From Micromonospora sp. RHAY321 (GTDB lineage Bacteria; Actinomycetota; Actinomycetes; Mycobacteriales; Micromonosporaceae): a DNA stretch of 64,000 bases. Within the stretch, counting starts at the first letter, position 1, and every line of letters starts with the position of its first letter. This document shows positions 42,761 through 62,002 of the stretch, piece by piece. Both the position numbers and the translations under genes were made by a program. A model generated the notes under the pieces. The model was not told the origin of the DNA. It worked only from the letters and a program-made list of their open reading frames with translations, and searched no databases. The stretch lies in contig NZ_JAMHIW010000001.1 in the NCBI RefSeq assembly GCF_023896955.1, forward strand, positions 434,001 through 498,000, given 5' to 3'.

Positions 42761-45700
42761 CTATGGCCTCCCCTGCACCGACCCGACGGGCGTGGTCGCA
42801 CCGATGAGGAACCCGGTGAGTTCCTCGTTGACCCGCTCCGCATCAGTGAAGCAGACGAAGTGCCCAGAGTTCGGCAGCTCCACGTATCGGGCATCGGGGA
42901 TCGCCCCGTGCATGAAGTGCCCGGTCTTGACCCCGACCACCGAGTCGTGCCGGCCCTGCACCACCAAAGTTGGCACGCTGATGTCCGGCAGACGCCCGCT
43001 CAGGTCCTGCTCCGTGAACAGGGTCAGGTACTTCAGCCCGGTCTTCGGGTCCATGCTCTCGCAGCGCAGCAGCAGTGCCGTCAGCTCCGCAGCGGTGGCC
43101 CGGTCGATCCGGCCGCCGCCGTCGTTGATGGCCCCGAAGTCCTCCGCCAGGACCTCGGCGAGCTTGTCGATGCGGCCCTTGCGGTTGGCGAACTTGTACG
43201 AGCCGCCGAGCAGGCTCAGGGACAGCACCTGCTCGGGATAGCGCAACGTGTAGTACTCGGCGAAGATGGAGCCCACCGAGGCGCCACCCACGTGAACGGG
43301 CTCGGTGATGCCCCGCTCGGCCAGCACGGCACGCTGCAGCTCGGCGACACCGTCGAGGGTCAACGCCGAGGGCACCCGGGTGCGTCCGACGCCTGGTTGG
43401 TGGATGACGATGACGCGGAACCGGTCGGCCAACCCCGCCAGCTGCGGGGCGAACATGCCGGCGCCGACGTTGAACGGGTGCATCAGCACCAGCGTCGGCC
43501 CGGAGCCGACCTCGAACACCTCGACAGTTCCCTCGGCGACCTCCAGCAGGTGGCAGGCGACCGCCGGGCAGATCTCGCGCAGCACCCCGAGGTTGTCGTC
43601 GCCGGGCGCGTAACCGGGACGGCGCAGCGATTGACCCAGCTCGGTCAGCTGCCGCCCGAACCACGTTGGCAGCGAGGCGGCAACCGGGCGGTAGCGCGCG
43701 TCCTGGGAGGCGACGCCGGGTGGTGACTCGCGGGTCAGATTCGGCGCCGAGAACGTGCCCGATGCCGCCGTAGCGATCTGCTGTCCCACCCGGCGCGCCG
43801 TCACGGCATCCATGCCCACCGGCACGGCGAGCCGAACGCACCGGTCCCTGCTCGGATGGGCGCCACCGCCGGACAGGTGTGGTCCGCCCCGCACTCCCGT
43901 GGTGTCGTAGAGCCATGCCAGGAACGAGGCGACCGGCTCGGTCAACTCGGCGAACCGCGGCATGGCGGCCACGTCGAGCAGGACGCAGTGCGCGCCGTCG
44001 GTGCCGACGACCGGGAGCCCCGCCTTGGTCAGCGGCCGCCGCAGCGCACGCACGGCCTCGCGGCGGCGAAGGACCCCATCCCAGACCACGTCGCCACCAC
44101 GAAGTGCGGTTCGGGCCAGCGCCCGGTCGAGTCTGCCGATGTCAGCACCGTGCAACGCCTGGTCGGCGCGGATCCGCTCCCCCAGTGCCGGGTCGCGGGT
44201 GGCGATGAGGCCCCCGGAGGCGAGCCCGAAGTCCTTGGACAGGCTGAGGGTGAGCGCATCGGCCAGGGACACCATCTCGCGGAGGACAGCCCAGGGGCCA
44301 CGGCCGACCTGGCCCGCCTCCCGCTCGACGATGGCCGCGACGTTGTCGAGCAGACGAGTGGCATCCAGCACCAGCGGCACACCTCGCGCGTGCAGCCGTT
44401 GGCCGACAGATCGCAGGTTCGCCAGCGACATCGGCTCGCCACCGCAGGCGTTGGCCCCGGGTTCGACCACGACGAACGCGATCTGCTCGGCGTGCTCGAC
44501 GAGAGCAGCGTCCAGCACGGCCAAGGGAAGGTCGCCGGCGAAGTCCACTTCCGGGGCCGGTGGATGCACCAGCGCGACCGGTGTGAACCGGCTCTCGGCG
44601 AGCGCGACCAGCCAGGTGGGGAAAACCCCGTTGTGCAGCACGACGCCCCGACGGCCCGCCCAGGCACGGCAGAGCAGCCGCTCGGCGGCGCGCCCGCTGG
44701 CGGTGGGAAGGACGGTGGCAAACGGCAGCCAGGGCACCTCCATCCGGTCCGGCTGGAGGTCCAGGCTGTCAAGCAGCTTCCGCTGCCGGGTCGCGATCCA
44801 GGGGTCCTGCCGCTCGGCCCAGGAGTCCGTGATCAGGTCGACGTCGATCACGTCCGGGCTCAACCGCAGGACGTTCCAGTCGGCGGCGGCCAGGGGCGAG
44901 TCGGCTTGCGCCGCCGATGACGGCCGGTCCTTCACAGCGGCGTTGTGCCGGCGATCGGGGTTCTTGTCCTCGTCACCGGTGGCGGCGTCGGTGCTCGCGG
45001 GGCGGCCGGCGGGTCGCTGCTCAGGGGAGGCGATCATCAAGAGCACCTCCTCGACCGAGCTGGGCCCGGACACGGGCTGGCACAGGTAGATCGGCATCTC
45101 GATCGGACGGAACTTGCTCTTGAACTGGTAGTTGCCGGCGCCGCTGACCCCGGCCTCGCTCAGTCTGCTCAGCGCCCTGACCGCGGCAGGCGAGGCGTTG
45201 TCGGACTGGCCTACCTGGACGCCGAACGTGGCGCCGAAGCTGAAGACGGTGGCGCCTTCGGCCCGCACCGTGTCGATGATGTGCACGATCGTGAACTCGA
45301 GGCCGCCCAGCGGCATCGTCCGGCGGTAGAACTCGACGTCGAGCAGGTAGCCGGGCTCACTGGCCATCCTGGTCACGACGACCGCCGCCATCAGGTCACC
45401 GTTGAGCCGGGTGAGGAACAGCCGGTGCGCGTCGGGCAGCGCGCCCTGGGCCAGGTCCGATCGGACGCGCGAGACGTAGCGGTTGACGTGCTTCTTGCCG
45501 GCCGTCCATTCGTCGACGAGGCCCACGATGGCCGCGTCGGTCGCGGGGTGGGTTCCCGGCCGGTACTCGGTGACGTCGATGGCGCCCTGGCGGGTGAACC
45601 TGCTGATGTTGCCTCGGAGTCGTCGCATCCGGCCGCCCTCGATGGTGAACGAGGTCAGATCGGTCAGGTGCTGCACGACACCGAAGGGTGTGGCGGTGCA

Positions 45701-62002: not shown

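Follow-up and report, generated by a model that had tools for sequence, protein, structure and literature searches.

The terminal module of a 6413-residue polyketide synthase from Micromonospora sp. RHAY321 carries one ACP, not two, ahead of its DUF-SH-TE end, and this is where the protein really departs from its relatives. The single-ACP module, a single HMG synthase (HMGS) of the module-5 type and a linked change at arginine 39 (R39) are new, while the internal domain order and the DUF-SH pair itself are not. The protein is best explained as the final synthase in an NRPS-PKS cluster of the leinamycin type, for which a sulfur-containing product can soundly be predicted from the sequence. In leinamycin-type lines, the terminal module KS-ACP-ACP-DUF-SH-TE has been called identical in all members in the text of PMC7618002. 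In the weishanmycin system described there, extension and branching took place on the first terminal ACP alone, the thioesterase (TE) released the second alone, and a cryptic transfer between the two was proposed. The passage of the chain between these ACPs was called a key unanswered question (PMC7618002).

The window, i.e. the whole stretch of 64,000 nucleotides that was analysed, corresponds to contig positions C1:434001-498000 of a 6.89 Mb genome. The open frame spans 42761-62209 on the minus strand (6482 aa); from the ATG at 62002 (42761-62002, minus strand) the synthase has 6413 aa, a length also listed for its homologue P0002 (96% identical). The preliminary description had reported an AT-less synthase of this size, and indeed no acyltransferase domain occurs among the Pfam matches of the protein. 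Pfam lists four KS, three KR, two DH stretches, an ECH and six PP-binding stretches, followed in the C-terminal part by LPG_synthase_C, Beta_elim_lyase and Abhydrolase_1. The main E-values range from 4e-16 (DUF) to 5e-181 (KS) and are far from chance. Domain HMMs, built from the synthase's own domains and iterated over homologues, gave the order DH-ACP-KR-KS-ACP-ECH-ACP-KS-DH-KR-ACP-KS-KR-ACP-KS-ACP-DUF-SH-TE, which reproduces the internal order as it had first been read. The features of the synthase are:

42761..62002, minus strand: trans-AT polyketide synthase of 6413 aa, taken as the last synthase of a leinamycin-type line (ORF, Pfam, domain HMMs)
61067..61981, minus strand: DH of the split module (HMM and Pfam)
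60860..61060, minus strand: ACP of the split module (HMM)
59612..60154, minus strand: KR of the split module (HMM)
58082..59338, minus strand: module-5 KS with its Cys and two His (HMM)
57764..57937, minus strand: psiACP of module 5, without carrier serine (HMM, alignment)
56639..57349, minus strand: in-line ECH (mECH) of module 5 (HMM; 0 of 41 conserved columns deviating)
56186..56386, minus strand: ACP of module 5, predicted beta-branching acceptor (HMM, alignment)
51758..55882, minus strand: module 6, KS-DH-KR-ACP (HMM)
48281..51622, minus strand: module 7, KS-KR-ACP (HMM)
46970..48211, minus strand: terminal-module KS with its Cys and two His (HMM)
46094..46294, minus strand: sole ACP of the terminal module, of the first (clade-1) type, with Ser 5266 and with Thr 5269 replacing R39
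45071..45979, minus strand: DUF domain, LPG_synthase_C fold, predicted to form the thiocysteine adduct (Pfam, alignment)
43793..44884, minus strand: SH domain, by homology a PLP-type thiocysteine lyase, with Lys 5923 encoded at 44234-44236
42806..43531, minus strand: thioesterase, with Ser 6242, Asp 6353 and His 6381 (Pfam, alignment)

The upstream KS of the split module sits on the neighbouring NRPS-PKS. The ACP ahead of the ECH reads GLDPAA and has no carrier serine, so the psiACP label it had been given is correct; by eye, this serine is absent from all 35 listed pre-ECH domains. Pfam and the HMMs agree on the DUF-SH-TE end, and the catalytic columns of all three domains are intact. The GNAT/DUF2156-like domain of the preliminary description is LPG_synthase_C in Pfam and weakly resembles aminoacyl-phosphatidylglycerol synthases (E 3e-7). 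Its PLP lyase domain is Beta_elim_lyase, and the closest solved chain is 9cen, 'Polyketide Synthase Protein' (E 8.5e-86). The PLP lysine, SH domain position 217 (residue 5923), is conserved in all 96 SH domains aligned (53/53 leinamycin-like and 43/43 other). The DUF (52 rows) and the SH domain (53 rows) retain every column with a conservation of 94% or more among the leinamycin-like rows. In the TE (53 rows) Ser, Asp and His are kept and a single conserved column deviates, position 170, with Thr for Asp. The sulfur reading had been said to fall if the SH domain lacked PLP-lyase residues, and the lysine and the conserved columns are present. It had also been said to fall if the DUF/SH order were shared with non-sulfur pathways, and non-leinamycin DUF-SH PKSs are likewise proposed to install sulfur (PMC8479088).

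The suggestion that the internal order may be a new variant does not hold, as 20 of the 51 DUF-SH-TE relatives share it, terminal ACP count aside. It was therefore ruled out as the novelty; methyltransferase domains, listed by Pfam in many relatives, lie outside the order scored by these HMMs. The psiACP with in-line ECH was ruled out as well because it is present across relatives. The single terminal ACP had been listed at first without remark, and the missing module-8-type HMGS lay beyond the region then described. That the cluster is an ordinary leinamycin-type one appears most improbable. Its upstream modules, DUF-SH-TE end and cassette are as in the family, but the terminal ACP number and the HMGS set differ from the published plan, and the ACP number differs from 48 of 51 relatives.

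The cluster extends beyond the end of the window. Its further genes, in window positions or, beyond the window, in contig positions (C1), are:

36821..38158, minus strand: AlkZ-like (HTH_42) DNA glycosylase, at the edge of the block common with the twin genome
38314..39228, plus strand: Crp/Fnr-type regulator
39225..41594, plus strand: trans-acting acyltransferase fused to a PfaD-type enoyl reductase
41631..42581, plus strand: cupin/JmjC-like oxygenase, likely tailoring, 97% identical in the twin cluster
62244..63485, minus strand: cytochrome P450, likely tailoring, 99% identical in the twin cluster
C1:498209-499444: HMGS
C1:500290-501531: KS0, by eye with Ser at the expected Cys position
C1:501528-501797: donor ACP
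C1:501794-514855: NRPS-PKS of 4353 aa
C1:515203-515955: ECH1

A type II TE is listed between the HMGS and KS0. The 4353-aa NRPS-PKS contains an ACP, two Cy-like condensation domains (motif scan), an A domain, a PCP, an Ox domain and three KS, the first of which reads ECAASG instead of EAHGTG and so is without that active-site His. We take the A domain to have a cysteine-specific look, judged by eye from the specificity code. Six elongating KS and two NRPS-side units would fit the eight modules of a leinamycin-type hybrid, starter loading not counted. In the twin genome (G809), which carries P0002, the cluster genes are matched in order at 93-99%, and the synthase frame, HMGS, KS0, donor ACP and ECH1 are conserved at 95-98%. 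The gene beyond AlkZ (34056-36590) has no counterpart in the G809 stretches compared. Both genomes have an estimated completeness of 100%.

At E 1e-60, the AlkZ-like gene was found only in the source genome and the twin among 160 Micromonospora genomes. By eye its motif is HATD, the AZL2 pattern H-aliphatic-(S/T)-(D/E), and not the (Q/H)-aliphatic-Q catalytic motif of cluster-borne AZL proteins. AZL2 genes have been reported outside clusters (PMC9040887). Because the motif is of the AZL2 kind, the gene was not accepted as proof of self-resistance; a role of the glycosylase in self-protection is possible. Outside the window, an operon at C1:522347-526088 encodes a GNAT, a 72-aa carrier protein, a PLP decarboxylase and an acyl ligase related to exosortase-A-associated families. 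Relatives of the ligase occur at E 1e-80 in 33 of 160 Micromonospora genomes. This operon might supply an amino starter unit.

Two terminal ACPs are present in 48 of the 51 DUF-SH-TE relatives, and one is present in three (P0002, P0003 and P0007). Both ACPs were also found in 44 of 44 distinct scored genomic loci outside the source genome and the twin, a set which overlaps in part with the 51 relatives, so that the two counts are not additive. These 44 loci comprise 37 from an alignment scan of 44 loci (L028, L048, L050, L051, L053, L054 and L056 were unscorable) and seven further genomes (G006, G040, G084, G151, G283, G310 and G373), the remaining hits being repeats of scanned loci. The ACP kept in the synthase is of the first type, with 69 bits for the first-type HMM versus 6.5 for the second-type HMM; for P0007 the values are 80 and 14. 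A second-type ACP elsewhere in the genome was ruled out by whole-genome scores, the best being 38.6 bits in the source genome and 38.3 in the twin compared with 70-105 in six control genomes. At E 1e-5, neither genome had a second-type ACP outside the in-line ACPs of this PKS.

These searches bear on the notion that the canonical in-series scheme operates and that a separate protein provides the missing second ACP or HMGS in trans. Trans-AT lines do use discrete proteins, and one carrier gene lies nearby:

C1:522916-523134: 72-aa carrier gene, inside the ligase/decarboxylase operon

The carrier belongs to that operon, however, and in two genomes of full estimated completeness neither a second-type ACP nor a second HMGS was found, which largely refutes supply in trans and leaves it with a very small probability.

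Single-ACP proteins were defined as a group by domain scoring before trees were made. In a 38-row DUF-SH-TE tree, P0007 joins the two-ACP protein P0006 (98/96), and P0001-P0003 group together (100/98). A tree forcing the four single-ACP rows together was rejected (p-AU 9e-22). The tree thus needs two independent losses of the second ACP. In a quick tree rooted with 12 non-leinamycin DUF-SH rows, the synthase nests among R39-bearing leinamycin-type rows (key nodes with SH-aLRT 84-97). Since it has one terminal ACP, the synthase is filed as a derived variant and not as a standard leinamycin-type member.

A loss of this kind could also be a step of decay, with a terminal module that no longer makes a sulfur product. 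The missing ACP, the missing HMGS and the replaced R39 can be read in this way, and TE column 170 deviates, as noted. We regard decay as improbable, since the 6413-aa frame is intact, the DUF-SH-TE part is 96% conserved in the twin, the conserved DUF and SH columns are all kept, and both losses of the second ACP left the rest in place. The last point can be argued further: a second ACP lost twice beside an otherwise retained module suggests that a one-ACP module works. The TE itself was compared for common changes. Five TE columns are common to the four single-ACP proteins, but other quartets, taken for comparison, yielded 1, 5, 2 and 25 such columns; no TE signal is claimed. Position 173 of the TE domain (42806-43531) is Thr or Ser in the four single-ACP proteins and Ala in 39 of 48 two-ACP proteins, a post hoc observation on one of many columns.

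The source genome and the twin each have one HMGS gene, and a second one elsewhere was ruled out in both. Counted by C-terminal matches in 26 genomes, two HMGSs occur in 22, one in three and none in one, the last being a Kutzneria whose locus was not scorable. In a second set of 13 genomes, eight have two and five have one (the source genome, the twin, G283, G235 and G014). The HMGSs form two clades in FastTree trees, with a split support of 0.5-1.0 depending on side and tree; the clades were named from gene position and from Actinokineospora iranica, with WsmD, WsmS and LnmM not in the tree. In 34 of 37 scored loci, an HMGS encoded 10 kb or less from the SH domain belongs to the module-8-type clade, as does the sole HMGS of A. 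iranica (G235), whose module 5 is without ECH. The module-5-type clade contains the HMGSs of the source genome and the twin, and those putatively located on the contigs of P0003, P0005, P0007 and P0008. A module-8-type HMGS is absent from both the source genome and the twin, and the source genome is thus without the dedicated module-8-branch enzyme that is a leinamycin-type trait. Module-5 branching with in-line ECH, which is not universal given its absence in A. iranica, is represented in the synthase. Among the best 120 HMGS matches of the module-8 search, none was assigned to the contigs of P0002-P0008, and only four of the 36 Arg-bearing relatives appear there (P0009, P0028, P0033 and P0038). 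Of 11 HMGS columns that distinguish the clades, position 193 is the sole one at which the source HMGS agrees with the module-8 type.

Genome G283 (L150, L124) is a mirror case, with an in-line module-5 ECH and a module-8-type HMGS only. For this reason, the rule that one HMGS means a lost branch was judged unsafe.

Arg39 of the first terminal ACP was reported to be 100% conserved in 29 synthases, and an R39A exchange abolished branching (PMC7618002). By the numbering of that paper, with D35 just before the carrier serine, R39 lies at Ser+3. In the synthase this position is Thr, while the remaining four branching residues, D35, D41, Y60 and D63, are kept. Arg is found in 36 of the 51 relatives and another residue in 15. 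Among cases with an accessible HMGS set, Arg at position 39 was accompanied by a module-8-type HMGS in 42 of 42 cases, i.e. 35 alignment-scan loci and the seven further genomes named above; the HMGS was within the locus in 34 of the 35 and on another contig of the same genome for L035. A residue other than Arg was accompanied by the absence of a module-8-type HMGS in four of four genomes, namely the source genome, G809 and the possibly incomplete MAGs behind L038 (Deltaproteobacteria) and L043 (Streptosporangiales); this look-up left out the R39-less proteins outside their clade (P0040, P0042, P0044, P0045 and P0046). Both MAGs still carry the second ACP, and the L038 genome has one extra HMGS-like gene outside both clades. 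As all four genomes fall in one clade (100/100), the link between R39 and the HMGS counts as one event. In the quick tree this clade lies within Arg-bearing lines (nodes 84-97), and this placement argues for loss of R39. Module-5 ACPs are also without the R39 feature, and this has been offered as a reason for HMGS choice (PMC7618002). The terminal ACP of the synthase scores no closer to module-5 ACPs than R39-bearing ACPs do. In P0036, P0039 and P0043, two of which are named Nocardia, the first terminal ACP is without R39, Y60 and D63, and the second is weak (32-41 bits). These proteins may be shifting towards a different terminal chemistry.

Domain order, intact catalytic residues, the missing second-type ACP and module-8-type HMGS and the linked R39 change are all read directly from sequence, and from them we infer each step of the following scheme. 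The terminal KS would extend the chain onto the single ACP. KS0, the donor ACP, the module-5-type HMGS and ECH1 would convert the beta-ketone into an unsaturated carboxylated branch, which would serve as a Michael acceptor. The DUF would add thiocysteine to this acceptor, the SH domain would cleave the C-S bond, leaving -SSH, and the TE would cyclise the chain straight from the single ACP. An ACP without R39 might let the module-5-type HMGS act on the terminal module too. We consider it on balance probable that one first-type ACP carries extension, beta-branching, thiocysteine addition and cleavage and TE release, and that one module-5-type HMGS makes both branches. If the TE cyclises directly from this ACP, transfer from ACP to ACP is unnecessary. 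Domain scoring found neither KR nor DH in the terminal module, so the unsaturated acceptor would most simply come from HMGS and ECH1. One HMGS serving two modules has a precedent in BonG of the bongkrekic acid line (PMC12560621), which counts in favour of the scheme. Several points count against a shared ACP and HMGS. The weishanmycin TE failed to release the first ACP, WsmD did not branch the module-8 ACP (PMC7618002), and this TE selectivity, the strict HMGS pairing and the R39A result all speak against sharing. No clear convergence of the ACP or the HMGS is seen, which weighs against a shared HMGS. P0007, P0036, P0039 and P0043 also lack Y60 and D63, as if branching had been given up in parts of the clade.

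The same observations feed the main competing explanation, in which the terminal module no longer forms a beta-branch, the HMGS acts in module 5 alone, DUF-SH acts on an unbranched chain and the product would bear -SSH at C-3 and no carboxylated branch. It fits the absence of the module-8-type HMGS and of R39, the loss of Y60 and D63 in the four proteins just named, and the strictness of WsmD for module 5 (PMC7618002). Some non-leinamycin modules, e.g. in P0096, read DH-KR-ACP-DUF-SH, so DUF-SH need not act on a branch. However, a terminal module lacking KR and DH offers no route in cis to an unsaturated acceptor, the terminal ACP keeps four of five branching residues, and G283 also manages with one HMGS despite its module-5 ECH. 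A lost branch seems unlikely to us, though less so than decay. Returning to the shared ACP and HMGS, there is about an even chance that a one-ACP, one-HMGS sulfur module arose twice from the tandem form. In such a module there would be no transfer between ACPs, the TE would take the chain from the first-type ACP, loss of R39 would have rewired HMGS choice, and the in-series scheme would be a habit of certain lineages and not a chemical requirement.

A natural synthase without the second ACP, which was lost on two occasions, shows what can be spared. It makes the published two-ACP model directly testable, and a one-ACP module would be a simpler system for rebuilding hydropersulfide installation in vitro. 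The link between R39 and the HMGS set points to a rule by which the HMGS acting on a given module might be told from sequence. A macrolactam with -SSH-derived sulfur is the product expected of a leinamycin-type line. If the cluster does yield its product, this would add a new sulfur-containing compound from Micromonospora to the relatives of leinamycin, an antitumour antibiotic.

DUF-SH proteins are common: 95 homologues were collected, and 44 DUF-SH loci lie in named genomes. DUF-SH proteins occur in five of 160 Micromonospora genomes and in three of 394 genomes sampled from the class; 109 DUF-SH clusters were counted in 2021 (PMC8479088). Leinamycin-type terminal modules also occur outside Actinomycetota, in L031, L042 and L038, whose records are named Ardenticatenaceae (Chloroflexota), Pseudoduganella and Deltaproteobacteria, respectively for the first, second and third. 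The scored order of P0053 ends in KS-SH-TE, and the HMMs detected neither a DUF nor a terminal ACP in it. No single-ACP leinamycin-type module is described in the literature found, including passages of PMC7618002, PMC8479088, PMC9040887 and PMC12560621, whose figures or supplements may hold an unremarked entry.

WsmR of weishanmycin, which is absent under that name from the alignments and was compared by its published description, shares the terminal KS, first-type ACP, DUF, SH and TE and the in-line module-5 ECH, and its cluster shares the KS0, donor ACP and ECH1 cassette (PMC7618002). It differs in a second terminal ACP needed for TE release and in an R39-bearing first ACP, where the present synthase has one ACP with Thr. 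Weishanmycin also relies on two strictly paired HMGSs, WsmD and WsmS, whereas the source cluster has one. LnmJ (leinamycin), GnmT (guangnanmycin) and LrgJ (largimycin) have the same DUF-SH-TE end (PMC8479088, PMC9396626), but compared by description only, they differ in their tandem terminal ACPs (PMC7618002). The SH domains of LnmJ, GnmT and WsmR were shown to be thiocysteine lyases (PMC8479088). The non-leinamycin DUF-SH synthases P0054-P0096 resemble the synthase in the PLP lysine and, in those proteins that also gave a scored ACP, in having one ACP before DUF-SH; they differ in that DUF-SH lies inside the line with no TE after it and with other modules. P0007 differs in its separate loss of the second ACP and in the absence of Y60 and D63. 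The uncharacterised homologues P0002 (G809), P0003 and P0007, with 96%, 62% and 50% identity over the DUF-SH-TE part, all have a single first-type terminal ACP, no R39 and a module-5-type HMGS, putatively on the same contig.
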